Source of the DNA: Isohypsibius dastychi | Lineage: Eukaryota > Tardigrada > Eutardigrada > Parachela > Isohypsibiidae | Assembly: GCA_034696485.1 (NCBI GenBank) | Contig: JAQIWT010000141.1 | Span: 1-32,155 of the forward strand | Reading direction: 5' to 3' | DNA: 32,155 nucleotides | Shown here: positions 3,305-31,944 of the stretch, piece after piece | Position numbering within the stretch: position 1 is the first letter of the stretch | Layout: each line of letters begins with the position of its first letter | The notes under the pieces: generated by a model | What the model was told of the DNA's origin: nothing | Databases searched by the model: none | Seen by the model: the letters and a program-made list of their open reading frames with translations, nothing else | Made by a program: the position numbers and the translations under genes

Positions 3305-3499
3305 CCCCTGAGCTGTTACGGTTGGTGATTTCCGGTTCTGACCGTGACCTTGAACTTCCAGGAATAACGTGTCTCGGATTGCCGGATAATTCGCATCCTG
3401 GATTCACATTCAAGCTTACGTTTCGCCACGGTTCGGACTCCTTCGTTTCACCGGACATCGCCACCTGTCGACTGACGAAAACAGGTAATGGTATTGCAT

Positions 3500-13010: not shown

Positions 13011-16000
13011 TCATTCGCCGTCCGATGGAGGTGCGACAAATTCGCCAGATAGTTGAACTCGTTGTAAATTCGTTTTGACTTCGGTTGTTTCCTCGGTTTT
13101 CTTGACCGATTCCTCCATCGGAGCTTCATCCGGTTTTCCATGAACCAACTCCATAACCCCACTAATGACAATATCCACAATGTTCGAATGCGGATCAAAA
13201 TCTTTGTGCTTGATTTCACTTTCATCCGGGAATCCGATATCGGTCTTCTCTTTTAGCTCAAACGGAAGATATTCCGATTCATCATCCGACTTCGAAATAT
13301 CAGGCTGGTGGGTGAAAACGCCGGTAACCGCAGACAACATGCCGGTGACGGAACCGACAACGGTGGCGATTATTCCCTTAGGTTCTTCATGATCCTTATT
13401 TTGACTTGCATCGATTTCGCTTCCGGTGACCGGCTTTTCGGACGAAACCTCCACCTTGGCTTCGCCCTTGACAGCCGCTTCATAGTTCTCCACGATTGGC
13501 TGGCTATAGTTCACCGGAATGGTTGAAGCAACGTCAACTACAAAAATAAGCAAATTTTACAAAGACAATAAAAAACGAAGCTTATAATAGAATAAAGCGT
13601 ACAAATTTTACATAAGGTTACTTGATTAAAAACAGCCACGAACAAAGCCTTCTCGACTATATTTTCTGACTGCGCACTTCAGCTGTTAACTACCGCTGAC
13701 CTTTCTGTTTAGTATGATGTTGTTCCAAATCGTTTCCTTCAAACTCCGCGTCAAGAAAGTGATCAGCTTTTCGGATCGACTCGCGTTTTCCTTCCCCACG
13801 ATCACTATCTGGCTGAACAACCACGGGAGACTCCTGATACTGGAAGCTTCGTCTACTCTCCGCAGAAGGACTTGAATGACTCGGCAAAAGTGAAGCATCG
13901 ATGTCAACAAAGTGCACTTCTTCATGCATTGGATGCACAGGTGGAATCATATCAGGAACAACATCGCGCTCGAAAATTGCCGAATCATCCTGCATCGGTG
14001 GAGATGTCAAGATGGACTGGCTTGGATGCGGTGATGGACGTTCAGGACGGGATAAAACATCGGGAATCGCGAGCTAGGGAAATTAATGGAAGGGGTCAAC
14101 AACACATTATCCTGTTGACAGAGTGTAAAAGTGGATGCTGTGCATCATCTCACCTCGTCAGATGAGCTGCCTAAAGAGGATGTCGATACGAATGTCTGAG
14201 TGCCTTCAAGTCCTAAAACATAACACGATGTTTTAATAACTGCACGTGCCATTTGTATAGAATTAGCTTGTGCAAACTCACCACCGGAGGACTGTTTTGT
14301 CCAAGGGCTACTTTGCTGATGGTGTACAGCCTCAGATCGATAATCGGTAGATGGAAAATCCCGTCGAAACGATGCCTAAGTCAGAGAAATCCTTAGCGGC
14401 GTGACCTTTTTACATCCAAATGGAGTTTCACTTGTCAAAAGTTCAGAGCTATTACGAAGAGTTCCAAACTAAATCGAAATGAACATACGTTTGAATGTTC
14501 TGACACAACGGAGGAACGTCCGCCGCTGATTCCCAAATCGGACTCCGTGCGTTCGAATGACTGGCTACTTGGTGAATGTTTGCTCAAGTCCAGCAAATCA
14601 GTTTCCGAACGATCCAATCGAGGAGGTTCTGGTTGGGATGGTAGGAGCCATGTTGCTTTTGCAGCACTTAAACGATCTTCGAACGAAGTCAGATGGACGA
14701 ACGGATGTTCCGGTGTGACAATCGGAACATGAGGCGCTCTGTCCACTACAGGGTTGTTGATATCTTCTGGAGTCAGCGAGTTTCGATGTTGGCCAATTTT
14801 CTGGAAATGACCACTGAACTCCTCAGCATTCTTTTCGGCGTCAGCAAGTGTAGCTTTTCCAGCTGAAGAGAAAAATTTATCCTCATCTGTCAACGAATTT
14901 CGGTGTTCTCCAATACGGGCAAATCGTTCACTGAACTCTTCGGCATTTCTTTCGGCTTCAGCCAAAGTCAGCGGTTCTTCGTTGGCTTCATGACGAACTT
15001 CAGCCGCAACATCCCACAATTCCGGTGATCGAACAAGATTAGTAGGTGTCTCCGGTTGGATGGACATACTATTATGTTTGGTAGGAGCATGCAAATCACT
15101 TGATAACGAATGATGAACATCGGCAGCTGGATATATCAGAGGTGAAGAATGAACATGGGGAGAAGAATATCCGGGACTCTGGGACAATGGAGGATCCCGA
15201 TAAGTCTGGGTGAATTCACCTGAAATACTATGCAGAGGAACCGATGGATGGGCTGGACTTGATGCGCTCCCCGGGGTCCATGTAGACTTTTCAGAGAACA
15301 AAGCATTTGAATCACGGACACGAGACGGGGTTTCTGTGCCTAGAATAGAGCAACTAAGACCTTCCCGACAATATTATCAACCATGATAAAAAAAAATTAT
15401 GCAAAACTTCAACGAAAACGAAATCAAAACTTCAATCGGTTTAAATCCCCAGCTTGAACCCACAAACACTTCAAAACCAAGACCACCCTAAATTCTTCGT
15501 AACTTTAGTGGTGCTGTTAATCTTCTTCAAATTAATTTGCCAACATAACATTGAAGATATATAAGAGAAGATCACTGCGAAGCCAGAGAGATACTACTGA
15601 CCTCCTACGGCTGTTTCTTTATCGAAAAGTAATTTACTACTTGGCACTTGGCAGTAAAGAAATTCGCATGTTTTAATGGTTGTTATAATTTATCTAGTTT
15701 TCTTTTTGGTAAGCTTCCACTTGGAAAGAGTGGTGTTCGAAATGAATGGGTTAGTTTAGTTAGTCTATTCTAGGCACACGTGGTAGTTGGAAGTTGGGGT
15801 CAGACAGGAACGAAGTACTTACGATGATCGAGGATGTCTTGAGCTCGCCCAATGTCCAAGGTTGTGTTACCAACAGTGACAATCTCCGACTCGTAGCGAT
15901 TTCGACTTTGATGCGAAGCACTTTGACTTTCGGTTGCTTGAAGCCCTTCTCGCTCAAAAGCAGCCTGCAAGTTATGCTGGACCAACGTATCATGCGATGA

Positions 16001-18434: not shown

Positions 18435-20458
18435 ATGAATTTGTCGTGGAAACCGCTGCAGTTGGGATTCTTCGTTTTGTTATCCAGGACTACACTGGCA
18501 GATATAATTGTGGTGAGTTAACCAGGACGACCTGTTTGATGTCAAATTGCAGCTTCTCTGGAAATTTTGAAACGAAACCGAGCAAATAGTGTGTTTTCTC
18601 TGTTTTTGGACGTTTATCTTGCGTTTGATCTTCGTCTGATAGTGAGAAAGATCATGGCCAGACTGATACTTGCTGTTTGGAAGTTACGTCATGATTCATG
18701 AACAGTGAAATGTTATGAAACGATTACCGACCTGACTGCTGCGGAAGTTGTGGCCTTGAATCTCCGTAAGATCTGTTTTTCTATAGGTCGGTGGAAATGT
18801 CACCGTTGCACGCTTCAAGGATATGCAGTCGACATTCGGTCCGGAAATTCCGGATGATGGAATCGATGGATATCTTGCTGTGGCAGACCCACCTCATGCT
18901 TGTAGCCCGGTAGTTAAACCACCCATGCCGCCGATGAACGAAACATTACCATGGATTTTGCTCATCAAACGTGGAGTTTGTAATTTTGACACCAAGGTAT
19001 GTTGCCTTGTTGAGTAGTTTTTTGAGACCATGTGTAATTTCCAAAGTAAAAGGATTTATATGGTCATACTTGTGACGGCTTCTGTAGTGGAGATGTTTTT
19101 GTTTCAGGTTGTTAACGCGCAGAATGCCGGGTATATTGCTGCGATTGTTTATGACAACAACACTTCGAGAAACTTGATTCCGATGTCTGGACCTGATGAC
19201 GGCTCAGCTCAGATACCTTCTGTATTCATCAGCTATGCTGACGGCCTGGCTCTCCAGACTTGGTTTCTTGCTTCTAATGGCTACTACATTCGGATCACGC
19301 AGGGATATACGCCGTTCTCATTAAACGCAATATTGCTACCGTTTGCAATAGTTGTGGGGATCTGCTTTTTGGTACTTAGTTTAGTTCTGGTAAGCAGCTC
19401 AACATTTTTTTCATTTGTACTTGCGTTTAACTGCACATTTTAGGTCGTAAAATATGTGAAAGACCGAAGACGGCGTCAGAGACATCGTTTACCGAAATCG
19501 CAGCTAAAGAAGCTGGCGTTGAGGAAATATAAGAAAGGAGAAGGAAACGATGTATGCGCCATTTGTTTGGAAGAATTCGAAGAAGGCGACAAATTGCGGC
19601 TACTCCCATGTCATCATCGTAAGTACCATGTAATCAACTGTCAGCTGTTTTTCTCAATTATGTTGAATGCTACATGCCTGGTGCTTTGGCTGGTTTTTGT
19701 ACTTTATTAGTTGGATATTATGGGAATTTTGCTTACAAAATATTACAACTTGGAAAGACAGTCATGATAATATCATGAATGGTACCCATAAGATAGCTCA
19801 AATTTGAAATCTTCAATATTGTATCGAGGTTACGGAATTTGACGTTTATCTGTACGATTGGTTAGAATTTCAGGCAGGATTATTTAGACCTGCTGTCATG
19901 ATGGTTGCGTTTTTGTGCTGTTTTGAATAAATTCATTGTCTTTAGAATACTGGGCTGTTTGAAATCTTTTGTATTGAGCCTGTTGAAATGATAACGTTTC
20001 GAAACATCTGTTTTGCTGTAGATTAGTCAATTTCGCCTGATTGACGTATTTTTGTTTCAGAGTACCATGTGAAATGCGTGGACCCTTGGCTTCTCAACAA
20101 TAAGCGGGTGTGTCCCGTCTGCAAGCGAAAGGTCATTCCTGGCGATGATTCAGACGAAGAAGGCTCTACAGGCCAGGGAACTTCTTCGGAGCCAAGTGAA
20201 CATACTCCTCTTCTCGCCGCCAACGTTGGGCCTCTGGACAACGATATGCCTGTACAGCAACCGTCCCTTCTGATCAACGTTGACTATGCAAGTGACGAGG
20301 AAAACGATGCCGACAATGAAGCTGACCAGGATCCTCGGTTGATACTGCAAGAAGATGATACTTCACCACCAACTACGTCGAGAAATTCTGCTGAGGAACC
20401 GGATGTTCCCCTTATTCGTCTGGGTGATTTAGAAGATGTGCCACAACGGCGTGGTTGA
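18435..20458 (+). CDS. RNF13/RNF167-type PA-TM-RING E3 ubiquitin ligase (380 aa)
   Basis: Exons 18435-18512, 18787-18996, 19108-19389, 19444-19618 and 20061-20458 (TGA) give 380 residues; human RNF13 has 381. Order: signal peptide (1-22), lumenal protease-associated domain (about 30-165), one membrane span (about 168-192), a cytosolic basic stretch, and a RING-H2 finger with C228, C231, C246, H248, H251, C254, C266 and C269. The finger lies in CAICLEEFEEGDKLRLLPCH, and the PWLL that follows is typical. Such proteins sit in endosomal/lysosomal membranes and ubiquitinate cytosolic substrates; RNF13 is tied to ER-stress signalling through IRE1. An acidic dileucine signal, EHTPLL (295-300), follows the RING, as in RNF13, where this motif controls AP-complex sorting to lysosomes. 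The tail is acidic. The start is the first ATG giving a signal peptide. RNF13 versus RNF167 cannot be decided; an ancestral single copy is likely. Confidence 0.95.
19619..20060 (+). other. RNF13-like gene intron 4 flanked by a 10-bp direct repeat
   Basis: The intron splits the RING finger between H248 and Y250 (donor GTAAGT, acceptor TTTCAG). The 10-mer AGTACCATGT occurs just inside the donor (19622-19631) and again as the first bases of the next exon (20061-20070). As a result, translation into the intron mimics the true protein briefly (KYHV) before diverging and stopping at 19710. Such duplication is what staggered-break or insertion-based intron gain would leave. Confidence 0.7.
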
Positions 20459-24600: not shown

Positions 24601-27600
24601 AAGCCAATTTTTCCCGATTTTTATCGACGTTGGGAAATTAAATTATCGAACCGAATTTCCTTTTTAGCTTGAATTTTTTCGTCGTTGGTTCTGCTCTGAA
24701 TAACCCAGTGATTTCATCGCAGTGTTTATTTTCGTTTGGAAATGTTGGGAAAAGTGCGTCAGTTTGATGAGTTTGCCATGATGGTGCATATTGTCAGAGG
24801 GATGATATGGTGTTGAGAAATCGGCTCAGCATGGATGAGGATTCTGTGCGGGGATGAGGATATTGGATTTACTCATGAGCTCTCTCGGTCTGGGTTGTAG
24901 CCTTTTCTTTTCCTAATGTGCCAACACATTACATCTGACAGCTTTCTTTTGAAAATTGTCGACGAGACCGATGATGATAAGCAGGCCAATACAGCTGGGA
25001 CTTGTCTTGAATTTGATTGAATTCGTAGGTGTAAATTGAGCTTTATAAAAGCTCTAAACGGACACTGTCCAGTACGTTTGACCCGAATCAATGCGTTGCC
25101 GGAATGCACTTTAAATATTTCCCCCTTGAATATGCAGAATAGGAAGGATGCGAAGAATGTTGTGCGCTCTTTTCGTGACAAGATAGTATTATTTATGTTT
25201 CATCTCAAATTTGATTAATCGATTTCATGTCGGTCCTGGAAAACGCAGAAAATTCCCCGATCAATATTATGACATTTTTTAAGTCACCCCAAAAACATGC
25301 TTTCAGGCTGATGATCAATCGGCGTCGAAGAATCAATATTGTTACACGTTACACTTTCCATAGGAATACGTTCTTATTAAAATACGTTGCCTAAATACGG
25401 AAATTCTGTACGGAAAACGAACGGGCATTTTTGGGGTAGCATCTGATATTTAATTTGACCATTCATCTTTTGAACAATTTGTAATCCCACAGCTCATGTC
25501 CTCCTTTATTGCACCGCAATAGCATCATTTTCTTTTAAATTAATTTGCTTGATCCAGAAAGAATCCTCATGATTACTAGATGTTGGCCATTCTCAGAATG
25601 GTCGTGGGAGGAGATGGTCTGCGGTTTATGTACGGATCAAGTATGTTTGACCCATATTTCTCGACAGCTATCATATCCTTTGGGAAGTGTTCTGTGGAAT
25701 GTTCATTTGCTGACCTTTCGCCTCTTCAGTTGGTTGACTGGGAGATGAGTTTACCTATTGGAATATTGAAATGTGGGCCAGCTGTCAAGGTGGTGAAAAG
25801 GATCAATCAAAAAAGGACTTCCGGTGTATATTCTCACCGGAAATGTCGCATCGGGTTCTACCACTCGGCTCAGCATGTCGTAGAGCACCGTCCAATCAAG
25901 GACATATTGAGATGAAATATCGAAAATAATAATGCCGTGGTTCAGTTCGGTAGTACTAATCTGCGCTTTTGTTGTATTTATTTGGAATAATTTTGCGAGA
26001 ACGGCTTAAATTCGTTGATGACTGGATCGATTGACTCGCTAATTCACTCAGTTTTATTATGTTTACGCATGAATCTCGTTCTTTGTTTTTATAACGAATG
26101 AAGAATCCAGGGGTGTTCAAAAGGTCAATCAATGTGGGAGGAAGAGGGATTAATTCCGGCACCCTTATCATGTCATGTTGTTTGGAGAACGCGACTGGCT
26201 ACGGGATTACCCTCATGTCCGGTTCGCTTGGTCATCAGCAGCTGCTTCGAGGGATAAAATTAGACGTGTCTCCAGATTTAGATTTGCAAAAAGATAGCTA
26301 ATCTTCCGATGCAATTAGTCTGGGATGACGACGTACTTCATTCACTCGCTGCCATGATAGAAAAATGGGCCACGTAAATATTCTTGACTTTTTATGCGAC
26401 TGAAACTTTGCGGGGTGAGACGATGTCATGGGAAAGAGAAAAGGTCAAACAGTCTGTGGTTACGCAGGGTTAATCCTCTCCGGCAGGGATTCGCGTTGAA
26501 TCCCAAATTTTCTGGACATTACAGGATTCGTGTTGGAAACGCTTTATTTTTGTATGGAAAATGTGAATGCTGAATACGAAGCTGGTAGAAAGAGGTTCAG
26601 TAGATTGAAGAATACCAATTTCGGTTCGAGTTGTCTTGCAGTGTTTGTTTTGCGCGTATTAATATGCAAATGACCATTGTGGTTGTGTGATCTTTTAGCA
26701 GGGCAATTAAGCAGGAATGAATGTGAGTGGATAAGAGTGGTCATTCCTAATGGTCAAAGGCGTGAAGCGGAATATTTTGAAATTTCACTCGTTTTCCACA
26801 AGCGACTGGCGATTCCCATGAAATCTCCCAGCGGGACGTTGCGAGCTCTTTAGCAGCTGCAAGTTGGGTGGTCATCAAGCGCCCCTTTGACATACTTGCC
26901 ATTAAAAGAATAAAATTCACAAGGCAACTGGCAAAAATTATTCTAATTTATTTGGACAAGCTTCGATTTGGCTACTCAGAGTAATCAATGTTTGGGGATG
27001 ACCCAGTTTAATCCCCCGCGGAGTAAGGGGATTTGTTCTCTCTTTAAATACACCGACGCTGGTGTTTATCCTAGCATTGTGCCACAATTTACCACGCAAA
27101 AAGAAATGATTATAGGGAATCGATTTTCGTTCATAAGAGTCGATTTTCTTAGAAGTTATCTCTAAGACTGGTTTGTTTATTACAGGTTCACGATGTCAAG
27201 AGTCAAACTCTGTCGGCAACGAAGATGCTTCGGAAGAAGCCGTTCAGCCCGCGCCACTGGCCACCATTCCGACCAAACCGGAAACGATACTGGTGCAAAG
27301 TGGAACTGAAATAAGATTACCTTGTCTTGTCGAATCTACCTACAAGGAAGGAGTCATTCTTGTATGGAAGAAGATCCGAGTTGGGGGTGGAGATCCAGTT
27401 TTTCTGACCAATAATGGAAAGCAAATTGGCAGAAATCCAAATATCGCGCTCGATGGTGATAACTTGATCATCAGGAGAGCTCACGAGAAGGACGCTGGAG
27501 AATATGTTTGTGAGGTCATGCAAAATCCACCGGTTGCAGTTCGGCATACTGTGATGATCTCACGTGAGTTACTGGAGACTTTCCGGTTGATCATCTTGAA

Positions 27601-29941
27601 ACCAACTGTTTTTTTTTATTTTTTAGGTCCGCCAACTGCTGATATTCAACCGAATGAACCATCGAAAGAAGTCCCGAAAGGAGACCCATATGATTTGTCT
27701 TGTATTGCCAGCGGATTTCCACATCCAACAATTCGTTGGTTTCTGAAGGTAAAGCGTTACAAAAATTCCGGACCCTTTTTTCCATGATTTTATTTTATTA
27801 TTTTAGGCACATGATGCTGAAGAACGCAAGGAACTCGAACAGTTTTATAATCATTCCAGTATCCATTTGGAGAACCTTCAACGAGAAGATGCCGGCGAAT
27901 ATATTTGTGAAGCTGATAACTCAGTTGGTGAAGCTGCGAACGCAACTCACAAGATCTTCCTACGATGTAAGTTCTCCAGGCTGAAAAAAAAGATTTTCCT
28001 GTGATTTTATTGATTTTATTTCTGATCAGATCAACCAGAGCTTCTGGACAGTACCGCGATATATTTGTCCAAGGTCGGCAGTGAAGCGCGACTCGAATGT
28101 TCCTTTTCGGCTTATCCTCTCGGAGGAGCTGCAGTAATCTGGCATAAACTGGAAAAGGCTCCCGTGGACGCCACTCTGCCGCCTCAGCAGGCAGAAGCTG
28201 TGACGGAAACAGTCGCGGAGGAACAGGTGACGGCTGAACCATCTGCTCCCGCGGAGATCGAAACAGAACATACGGGCCAAAATAAACGCCGGCAAACTAG
28301 CGATGAAAAAGGAGAGCAGGTACATTAATGATCACAGAATTAATTTCCATGAATATTTCATGATTGAATCTCTTAATAATTTCGGTTTTTCAACAGGTGC
28401 ACAATAGTGACCGCCATGAGCTGATTGAAACTAAAGATGGATCGAATCTAAGATCAACCTTGGTGATCAAGAATGTCCAGGAAGACGATTTCCGGAAGTA
28501 TATATGTACGGCCAGCAACGAATTGGGCTCAGCATCGCACACCGTGGAATTATCAGGTCATATTTCTAACGATTATAAAATTTGTCTTCGAAACGATTTT
28601 TGAACATTTTATTGGAATATAACACTGTTTTGGGATATTGTTGGATGGCACTGAATTTCTAATCCATCTTGAAATGTCAAGTCGAGTTTGAAAAGTGATC
28701 GAAATGCATTAGCATTTGACCGGGGCAAGTCAGCTTTTGATATATTCCAAGTCAGAGTCATAGTGCGGTCATCCAGAGGATGTGGAGCGTGGTCAGCCGG
28801 GACTTATTATTGCATTTGCAGTTTCTAATGTCGGCTCATTTTATATTGCAGGCCTTCCTTATCCCATCGCCGTTGAAGCAGCCAATGTAGCCATCCATGA
28901 GCCGTTAAAATATGCACTGGCCTGGCGCGTTCGCAGTTCTTCCCCCATAAAGGAGTACCGAATTATTTACCGTGAAGTGAGTTGAAGTTAAAATAATAAC
29001 TGCGCTCTTTCCGGTTCATCCAACTGGAAAGTTTAATTAATGAGCTGCCCTCCACTTGGACAAAAGCTTATTCTAACCGAGCAACTTAATATTATTATTC
29101 AAACGGTTGACATCCTCTGTTCAGATGTTGCCGGTTTAAAGTGCATCGGCCAATTAATGCATCATGTTTTCCGGACTTTGCTCAAGCAGATGTTTGAAAA
29201 TATTTCACTTTCATCGAAATTAGCAGCCGAACCAAAACGTTGAAAAAATTATGGAGTTTTAAAAAATTCCACGTTTCTCGGCTTAAAATTTCTGTTTTAC
29301 TGCTTATCGTAATACTGGCATTTTTGCAAAGAACAAAATAACTGAATGGAATAATCAAGAAGTGGAAAAAATCAGCATACTACTGTAACTGAAAATCTGG
29401 AATTTCAAAAAATCGAGGCTTTCGGTGGTTAGCGTTCCAGTATATAAGCTATACTACTATTTTGTTCTCTAAACATTTGTGGTTGTTTTCAGTTTAACGA
29501 GACCCATCAGGGTAGTGATCAGAATCTGACCGTGATGGAGGATGATAAAGACGCACAACCAGAAAACGGAGATGTGAAGCTATACCACAAGACTCACGTC
29601 TTTGAGAATTTGCGGCCATTCACCAATTACACAGTGCAGATTGGAGCACATAACGATTACGGCTGGAGCAATGAAAGAGATTTGCAGCATCAATTTTTCA
29701 TGAGCGATTCGACAGCCAGCTCTCAGATTGGTGGAAAGTCTCATGGTGAGTATTCCTAAAGGTCATTATCTATTCCACTTAAGAATGCATGCCTGGATCG
29801 CTTCTCATAAACACCACTCCACTTTGCATCTCATTAAGTGACCTTTCTCGTTTTGTAGCATCGACCATCGTCCCCCAGTCTTCCACCCTTGCCTTCGTCT
29901 TGACGTGTTTGTTATTGACGAACTGGAGAAGGGGACTGTGA
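21690..29941 (+). CDS. Klingon/Wrapper-like adhesion protein: three Ig domains, one FN3, C-terminal anchor (537 aa)
   Basis: Nine exons: 21690-21732, 27186-27563, 27627-27748, 27807-27966, 28030-28319, 28397-28556, 28852-28976, 29493-29745 and 29859-29941 (TGA). Phases agree throughout and the total is 538 codons. Order: short signal peptide (1-15); Ig1 with C61, W75 and C123 in DAGEYVCE; Ig2 with C166, W178 and C215 in DAGEYICE; Ig3 with C258, W272 and C368; an FN3 domain (about 386-495) with an NYTVQIGAHNDYGWSN strand; and a hydrophobic C-terminus (TLAFVLTCLLLTNW) ending in RRGL. Three Ig plus one FN3 with a lipid anchor is the layout of insect Klingon and Wrapper, cell-surface adhesion proteins of neurons and glia. 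The tail could be a GPI signal or a minimal membrane span; the basic end makes this uncertain. Several N-glycosylation sites are present (for example NHS at 196). Ig3 carries an unusual acidic insertion of about 55 residues. Confidence 0.87.
21733..27185 (+). other. 5.45-kb first intron of the Ig/FN3 gene
   Basis: The donor GTAAGT follows the signal-peptide exon and the acceptor TTACAG precedes the Ig1 exon; the split codon is Gly. All other introns in the gene are 58-516 nt. Open frames of up to 105 codons in the AT-rich interior (such as 22541-22858) look like chance. I find no transposon ends, RNA genes or nested gene by eye. Regulatory elements are likely but not identifiable here. Confidence 0.75.
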
Positions 29942-30584: not shown

Positions 30585-30613
30585 ATGATCTCATTTTCCA
30601 TTTGCGCAGAAGA

Positions 30614-30649
30614 ATGAAGGTTTTAGTGATGATCCCGCGAACGAGCTGA
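30614..30649 (+). promoter_or_regulatory. Candidate upstream ORF, 11 codons, in the bZIP leader
   Basis: ATG at 30614 to TGA at 30649. It is counted as leader only if transcription starts upstream of it, which the sequence cannot show. A further ten-codon frame at 30585-30617 overlaps it. Confidence 0.3.
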
Positions 30650-30684
30650 GATTTTTTTCGTTTTCGATTTACAACGATTTGATA

Positions 30685-30693
30685 ATGTTTTGA
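30685..30693 (+). promoter_or_regulatory. Minimal upstream ORF (ATG-TTT-TGA) in the bZIP leader
   Basis: A two-codon ORF lies 40 nt before the next upstream ATG (30733) and about 133 nt (after leader splicing) before the main start. It matches the position and size class of uORF1 in vertebrate ATF4 (three codons), which lets ribosomes resume scanning after termination. Confidence 0.55.
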
Positions 30694-30732
30694 AAAACTT
30701 TCGAGCGCCGCGGTGCTTTTATTCCAACCAAC

Positions 30733-30940
30733 ATGAGGTACGTGACCTGAAAAGGGAACTTCGTCAGTGCTTGGAATTTCTTTGACGCTTTTCAGGTCTT
30801 CCCGTTTTGTGACCCTGGGACGTATTTCTGAGACTATCCGAAAAAGCGGGTGTTCCGAAGATCCTAGTGGAGAGGTCCAACATCATGGAAGACATTGTTA
30901 TGTGGTGGGATGTGGACGCCGCCCGCAAAGGGCAGGCTGA
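30733..30940 (+). promoter_or_regulatory. Spliced upstream ORF overlapping the bZIP start codon (49 codons)
   Basis: ATG at 30733 has A at -3. In unspliced RNA it stops after five codons at 30750. Removing a 58-nt intron (30738-30795; donor GTACGT, acceptor CTTTTCAG) joins 30733-30737 to 30796-30940, giving a 49-codon frame plus TGA. It overlaps the main coding sequence (start 30885) by 56 nt in a different frame. This is the arrangement of the inhibitory uORF2 of ATF4, which blocks the main ORF unless eIF2alpha phosphorylation slows reinitiation. The splice event is inferred from its two strong sites. Confidence 0.65.
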
Positions 30941-31944
30941 TGGTGTATCGGAGTCGGAAGCTCATGAAACCGACGATTGTGAATCCCACCCTTCGTCGTT
31001 TGATCTAGAAAAAGTCATGGTGTATGATCCACAAGGTATACACCTGACTTCTGGAGAGAATTCTGGAATCGACTTCCTTGCTTCCGGCGACATTGAACAA
31101 CTCCTAGATTGTGGAATGTCTTTCGAGCCCACAAGCTATCTTGACACAATGTCCTACATCGCACCGGAAATGGCATTTGACTATCTCGAAGTTCAAGGTT
31201 CGATTCAATGTCAACAGAATGTTTGGAATACCACAAAGAGCATGACATCATTTGTTGTTGATAGATAGTGACTCATCTAGGGCGTCCAGATATTGCTCAG
31301 ATATTGCATGTTTTTACTGTTTAGGTTCTGCGAATGAGTCCAGTTTCACCGTGACAGGCTCCTCATATCTGGAAAATGATGATTGGTTCTTCACATGGTT
31401 GACAGCTCCGAACGACGAAGTCGGTGCTTCCGAGAAATCCGATCTACTTGTACAGATAGATAACTACGATCAGTTTCTGTCATTCTTGGCCGAACCTGTT
31501 AGTGCTGCTCAAATTAGTACGTATGTCATCCTTGTTACGAATTTCGTTGAATCTTGATAGTGTGACCTTTCCGCAGACGCTGTTGACTTGAGAGATTCCA
31601 CCCTTGGTGTTCCAGTTCTGTCTTGTGCAGGAAGCAGCTCTTTTCCAGAATGCATGGTGGATGTAGAACGAGCATCGACTAGCGAAGAGCAACCCAAAAA
31701 AGCAAGGATATCGAAAACGTCCCCGAAAAGACGGCGTCAGAATTCGAAAGCATCTGAAGAATACCGGAAAAGAAAACGCCTCTCTTCAAAAGCGATGAAA
31801 ACTGATCATGTCAAGCTCCAGGAAGAAGTAGCTGCCTTGACTGAGAAACAGAAGGAACTGATTATTCAGCTTGGATTTGCTGTTAGAATACTGGAAGAAC
31901 GATTGAAAGCGCGTGAGCTTGTTACACCGGTATCTGGTGAATAG
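30885..31944 (+). CDS. ATF4-like bZIP transcription factor (290 aa)
   Basis: Exons 30885-31197, 31325-31516 and 31577-31944 total 291 codons with stop. The N-terminal two thirds are acidic with hydrophobic clusters (WW near residue 7, FDYLEVQ near 100, WFFTWL in exon 2), as expected for an activation region. The C-terminus has a bZIP domain: basic region 219-236 with the NxxA(S)xxYR signature (N224 to R232, Tyr before Arg as in ATF4), then a zipper with M242, L249, L256 and L263 in heptad register. ATF4 activates amino-acid, redox and ER-stress genes as a heterodimer. The DSGxxxS beta-TrCP degron of vertebrate ATF4 is not evident. The start at 30885 has A at -3 and G at +4. The leader uORFs support the ATF4 assignment. 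The first intron's donor (GTTCGA) is weak. Other bZIP families (ATF5, or a divergent C/EBP) cannot be excluded from the domain alone. Confidence 0.85.

Follow-up and report, generated by a model that had tools for sequence, protein, structure and literature searches.

A paired-uORF leader on an ATF4-type bZIP gene of the tardigrade Isohypsibius dastychi, with a second uORF divided by a predicted leader intron

Paired upstream open reading frames (uORFs) in the leaders of ATF4 genes have already been described across animals, and the unusual detail of the gene reported here is a second uORF that is predicted to be split by an intron. In human ATF4, uORF1 has four codons and uORF2 has sixty codons, 27 of which are overlapping, according to an excerpt of PMC12839439. 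A passage of PMC4176352 states that paired ATF4 uORFs, with a uORF1 of 2 or 3 amino acids, are conserved throughout the metazoa apart from nematodes, and judges uORF1 of Caenorhabditis elegans atf-4 too long for reinitiation. The C. elegans gene (formerly atf-5, T04C10.4) carries two inhibitory uORFs that are relieved by stress, as reported in excerpts of PMC4225475 and PMC8857226. A related arrangement is found in Drosophila Xrp1, which also encodes a stress bZIP protein and from which alternative splicing produces isoforms without the inhibitory leader (excerpt of PMC13268129).

We analysed a stretch of 32,155 nucleotides of I. dastychi (the window; assembly GCA_034696485.1, contig JAQIWT010000141.1), and all features of the gene described here are on its plus strand. 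The first uORF, uORF1 (30685-30693), reads ATGTTTTGA (ATG TTT TGA) and consists of two codons, Met-Phe-stop. The second, uORF2, starts at the ATG at 30733 and, when unspliced, stops after the five codons MRYVT. A predicted leader intron of 58 nt (30738-30795, GTACGT...TTTTCAG) obeys the GT-AG rule and has ATGAG/GTACGT as donor and GCTTTTCAG/G as acceptor. It contains no ATG and lies in phase 2 within uORF2, so that the first exon part of this uORF is ATGAG (30733-30737), with the donor 5 nt downstream, and the second exon part runs from 30796 to 30940, including the TGA at 30938-30940. The spliced uORF2 encodes MRSSRFVTLGRISETIRKSGCSEDPSGEVQHHGRHCYVVGCGRRPQRAG followed by a stop, comprises 49 codons and ends at 30940; its last 56 nt overlap the bZIP coding sequence, which begins with the ATG at 30885, in a different frame (+1). 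The stop of uORF1 and the start of uORF2 are 39 nt apart, and a further 94 nt separate the start of uORF2 from the main start. An A is present at -3 of uORF1, uORF2 and the main start. If the transcript starts further upstream (30585-30649), the ATGs at 30585, 30614 and 30629 become relevant; they open possible uORFs of 10, 11 and 6 codons, the latter two in one shared frame.

A sequence-only reading had proposed most of these elements. Its two-codon uORF at 30685 was borne out base for base. The coordinates it gave also proved exact for the ATG at 30733, where reading ends after five codons if the 58-nt GT-AG intron stays in, and for the spliced 49-codon frame with its 56-nt out-of-frame overlap of the bZIP start. 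The observed leader layout is confirmed in every coordinate.

As in the excerpt on human ATF4 (PMC12839439), a very short uORF1 is followed by a long uORF2 that runs over the bZIP start out of frame, and this anatomy would fit delayed reinitiation of the human type. Compared by uORF lengths, which is how the human leader was compared, uORF1 of the window gene differs in having two sense codons, and an intron is predicted to interrupt uORF2 of this gene after its first 5 nt. The ATF4 genes of arthropods, molluscs and Hydra likewise have paired uORFs with a short uORF1, and the passage of PMC4176352 on these genes makes no mention of a leader intron inside uORF2. C. elegans atf-4 is also a bZIP gene with two leader uORFs, but its uORF1 is described in excerpts as long, whereas that of the window gene has only two codons. 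The splice isoforms of Xrp1 vary in their leader (excerpt of PMC13268129), whereas in the window uORF2 is split by a single intron. A limited literature search of title listings and selected passages yielded no description of an intron inside an ATF4 uORF2.

The main coding sequence was modelled with three exons. Exon 1 (30885-31197) starts with MEDIVMWWDVDA, exon 2 (31325-31516) has phase-1 introns on either side, as it does in the modelled paralog described below, and exon 3 (31577-31944) holds the bZIP domain (PF07716, bZIP_2). The two coding introns (31198-31324 and 31517-31576) are removed to give a protein of 290 amino acids that ends at 31944. The donor hexamer GTACGT is found both in the leader intron and in the second coding intron, and 4 of the 7 introns modelled across this gene and its paralog end in TAG. 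Intron ends of this kind at such a frequency are unlike C. elegans. Directly upstream of the gene, on the same strand, frames at 27137-29759 match the immunoglobulin domain over its cut-off and fibronectin-III below the cut-off, and this content marks the genome as animal. A frame on the minus strand of the window (14435-15373) contains an internal repeat, LTLAEAERNAEEFSERFARIGEHRNSLT with a similar second copy, and matched no Pfam family over its cut-off.

Assignment of the gene to the ATF4 type is supported by domain and profile comparisons. The protein alone matched PF07716 weakly (21.6 bits with a cut-off of 22.3), and in the bZIP_2 search of the genome the gene scored 24.6 bits, over the cut-off. 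When the bZIP regions of the window gene and its paralog were combined in a two-paralog profile and compared with PDB, ATF-4 (1ci6) ranked first of 7 with an E of 0.0011, above PAP1 and NFIL3. In the alignment to this profile, the basic region matches ATF-4 in N-x6-Y-R and QN..A...YR..KR. Taken singly, the window protein gave nothing significant in PDB (ATF-4 sixth of 6, E 2.3), and the paralog gave ATF-4 first of 3 with a non-significant E of 0.21. Of 1,653 candidates that the full 290 amino acids drew from a protein collection, none reached E 0.01, and of 28 drawn by the last exon, none reached E 1. Since these searches yielded no homologues, the comparison was confined to the source species. 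Matches in an NCBIfam search were chance matches only.

Searched for bZIP_2, the assembly yielded 13 matches, 10 of which exceeded the cut-off, and from the basic regions of the retrieved loci a second ATF4-type gene was picked out on contig C1330 (locus L034, C1330:2000-11299; 23.9 bits against bZIP_2). A protein search of the assembly, with 2 matches in all, gave no third ATF4-like copy. Identity between the two modelled proteins is 31% (81 of 263 aligned positions), and between their bZIP regions it is 42% over the aligned part. The paralog protein starts with MDMDIMWAGED. In both gene models the first two coding introns are in phase 1, and the paralog, whose exon borders are our own model, has one extra intron. 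Frames with a PA domain and a RING finger were found at 19018-20458 of the window, approximately 10 kb upstream of the ATF4-type gene, and at 6574-7437 of L034, approximately 1.3 kb downstream of the paralog; several of these matches fall below the Pfam cut-off. This neighbourhood on both contigs may have been left by a segmental duplication that gave rise to the paralogs. At approximately 1033-1204 of L034, beside zinc-finger-like frames, a long inverted repeat (cgatgctaacggacactttt ... aaaagtgtccgttagcatcg) was noticed by eye, which is perhaps a MITE-like element.

The leader of the paralog repeats the layout of the window gene. Its uORF1 (L034 3578-3586) reads ATGTTCTAA (ATG TTC TAA) and again encodes Met-Phe-stop, the same peptide as in the window. 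Its uORF2 starts at L034 3633 with ATGAC/GTGAGT, the ATG again 5 nt before the donor, and the predicted leader intron of 76 nt ends at L034 3713 and lies in phase 2 within uORF2. After splicing, uORF2 has 49 codons and overlaps the main frame (ATG 3782) by 77 nt, also in the +1 register. Because the distances from the uORF2 start to the main start differ (94 nt in the window and 73 nt in the paralog), the equal length of 49 codons is probably a coincidence. The gap between the uORF1 stop and the uORF2 start is 46 nt. At -3, uORF1 of the paralog has G, uORF2 has A and the main start has C, and taken over both genes the start contexts are mostly fair. Further upstream ATGs of the paralog are located at L034 3403, 3426, 3433 and 3478; the frames opened at 3426, 3433 and 3478 would cross uORF1 if transcribed.

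Aligning the leaders of the two genes as DNA was uninformative, and the uORF2 peptides align poorly, their slight likeness being mostly in the part that overlaps the main coding sequence. The 9-mer GGTGCTTTT is found between uORF1 and uORF2 in both genes (30712-30720 in the window), 18 nt (window) or 20 nt (paralog) after the uORF1 stop, its distance to the uORF2 ATG being 12 or 17 nt. When the two spacers were shuffled by mononucleotide, a shared 9-mer arose in 0.4% of cases, and as three other 9-mers are common to the wider leaders out of register, it is only a weak lead. A hairpin of 6 bp with a 4-nt loop could be drawn by eye just 5' of uORF2 in both genes (window 30703-30718, L034 3598-3613), the two copies differing by two G-U to A-U changes; it is part of the predicted fold of the window and is not in the minimum-energy fold of the paralog. 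Folding of four leader pieces gave a stability not above that of shuffled sequences (z 0.50 to 1.09), and an Rfam search with the window and L034 gave no matches.

The layout of a single leader could also have arisen by chance. We counted leaders with exactly two upstream ATGs, the first opening a frame of at most 3 codons and the second one that runs across the main start in a different frame. Among 50,000 dinucleotide shuffles per leader this pattern occurred in 1.2% (window) and 0.8% (paralog), the starts of the shuffled leaders being our choice, downstream of the other upstream ATGs. When an ATG 5 nt before a donor was included as well, the frequencies were 0.002% and 0.05%. In a set of 196-198 pseudo-leaders from 180 kb of the same assembly, taken from 18 of 20 loci with L034 and the possible contaminant L018 omitted, the paired layout was found in 1-2 cases, and any overlapping out-of-frame uORF in 87-89 (44-45%). 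The succession of AGGTACGT and TTTTCAG within 90 nt, counted after the site had been seen, had no occurrence on either strand of the 180 kb. L018 lies on contig C4, where an intact ATP phosphoribosyltransferase frame (HisG, E 3.9e-45) occupies L018 913-1905, with a RhoGAP frame near it and an AspRS-like frame recognized by eye. The G+C content here is 48-49%, compared to 43% over the retrieved loci, and contig C4 may derive from another organism.

A single leader with this layout is therefore mildly unusual, at about 1% by chance, and weak evidence when taken alone. The layout becomes convincing because a diverged paralog matches it in the uORF1 peptide, in the distance from the upstream ATG to the donor and in the overlap frame. 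A chance origin of the uORFs and the intron, with no regulatory role for either, is compatible with the abundance of overlapping out-of-frame uORFs among the pseudo-leaders and with the rate of the paired layout, but the repetition of all these properties by a paralog with 31% protein identity makes this explanation extremely unlikely. Judged from the protein identity and the only slight likeness of the uORF2 peptides, the layout was kept while the sequence drifted. Its survival at such divergence, seen in one paralog pair, speaks against chance and for selection acting on position; since the two uORF2 peptides show no clear likeness, position seems to count and not the product. The decoy uORFs are probably real.

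The acceptor of the leader intron allows for another reading. TTTTCAG resembles a nematode trans-splice acceptor, and if the copy ending at 30795 were a spliced-leader acceptor, the mature mRNA would start at 30796 and lack any uORF, the stretch from 30796 to the main start at 30885 being free of ATGs. Against this, both paralogs have a cis donor at the identical position, 5 nt from the A that opens the upstream ATG. Also, no spliced-leader matches were obtained from the assembly: a search for the SL1 family gave none among the best 50 of 7,334 candidates, with the control genomes also blank, and patterns for the SL1 exon (up to 1 mismatch) and an SL2-like exon gave none either. Little weight attaches to these negative results, since arrays of this kind may be missing from the assembly. 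The paired cis donor together with the absent matches makes trans-splicing less likely, and we regard it as highly improbable.

We consider it quite probable that the gene is controlled by ATF4-type delayed reinitiation, in which the body of an inhibitory uORF2 is joined by leader splicing that is most probably constitutive. Removal of the short leader intron would connect the uORF2 ATG to the uORF2 body. Ribosomes would terminate at the two-codon, permissive uORF1 and resume scanning. With plentiful ternary complex they would reinitiate at uORF2 and, reading its 49 codons past the bZIP start, bypass that start; with limiting eIF2 they would scan beyond the uORF2 ATG and begin translation at the bZIP ATG. 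In both paralogs the putatively permissive uORF1 has two codons and, given removal of the leader intron, uORF2 overlaps the main start out of frame. Splicing, reinitiation and a response to eIF2 kinases we infer from established ATF4 biology. The earlier claim of a conserved ATF4 mechanism stands as far as the gene is ATF4-like (profile E of 0.0011) and its paired-uORF leader recurs in the paralog, and is weak in its proposal of an intron-retention switch.

Several observations speak against delayed reinitiation in this form. A weak point is the gap of 39-46 nt between uORF1 and uORF2, which leaves little room for regaining the ternary complex. In mammals this gap is longer. The extra upstream ATGs in both leaders count against the model, depending on where transcription starts, and the C at -3 of the main ATG counts against it in the paralog. 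In the assembly, eIF2alpha (EIF_2_alpha) gave no matches and no first-look candidates, compared to matches in 4 of 14 control genomes, and the same was obtained for COX1 (8 of 14 control genomes matched). The W2 domain, which also covers 5MP, gave no matches and no candidates either, with the control genomes also blank, so absence is not shown; the cuticle-collagen N-domain and Chitin_bind_4 were equally without matches or candidates in the assembly and in the blank control genomes. As eIF2alpha and W2 proteins are expected in any eukaryote and were not matched, either the assembly has gaps or the search lacks sensitivity. The missing cuticle-collagen domains speak only weakly against a nematode, and the missing Chitin_bind_4 only weakly against an arthropod. 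Together with the intron ends, these weak signs lean away from a nematode, in which a leader of this kind would contradict the statement of PMC4176352 that the typical pair is lacking there. Co-conservation with 5MP is an idea put forward in a passage of PMC4176352.

Leader splicing might itself be regulated, and the sequence-only reading had proposed that an intron-retaining mRNA without the overlapping uORF yields the factor without stress. In the window this holds for the retained form, which loses the overlapping uORF: the retained intron has no ATG and only the five codons MRYVT follow uORF1. In the paralog it fails, as the retained intron holds ATGs at L034 3648 and 3699, and the latter opens a frame of 104 codons that overlaps the main start out of frame. 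A retention switch shared by both genes is unlikely because the retained intron of the paralog thus brings its own overlapping uORF. The truncation upon retention in the paralog (ACG TGA) comes from the GTGAGT donor itself in phase 2 and needs no selection. Moreover, the leader splice sites are good by eye and the donor hexamer is also used by a coding intron of the window gene, which suggests constitutive splicing. Reportedly, a 2013 paper deals, by its title, with an ATF4 splice variant and an IRES. There are precedents for leader variation in excerpts of PMC13268129, where Drosophila Xrp1 splice isoforms without the inhibitory leader act in cell competition, and of PMC12839439, where an internal stretch of the 5'UTR distinguishes the V1 mRNA of human ATF4 from V2, but according to the former excerpt the isoform composition of Xrp1 shows no significant change under ER stress. 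Overall, we consider regulated retention as a switch very unlikely. A paralog-specific, stress-independent ATF4 route, in which retention would free the window factor and add a uORF in its sister gene, is similarly a long shot.

In these two genes the paired-uORF layout of ATF4 has outlived a duplication and the deep divergence of the copies. The peptide of uORF2 shows no clear conservation, which favours positional control over control through the peptide. In these genes the start and the body of uORF2 are predicted on different exons. If splicing of the leader intron were regulated, the stress factor could be switched on without phosphorylation of eIF2.
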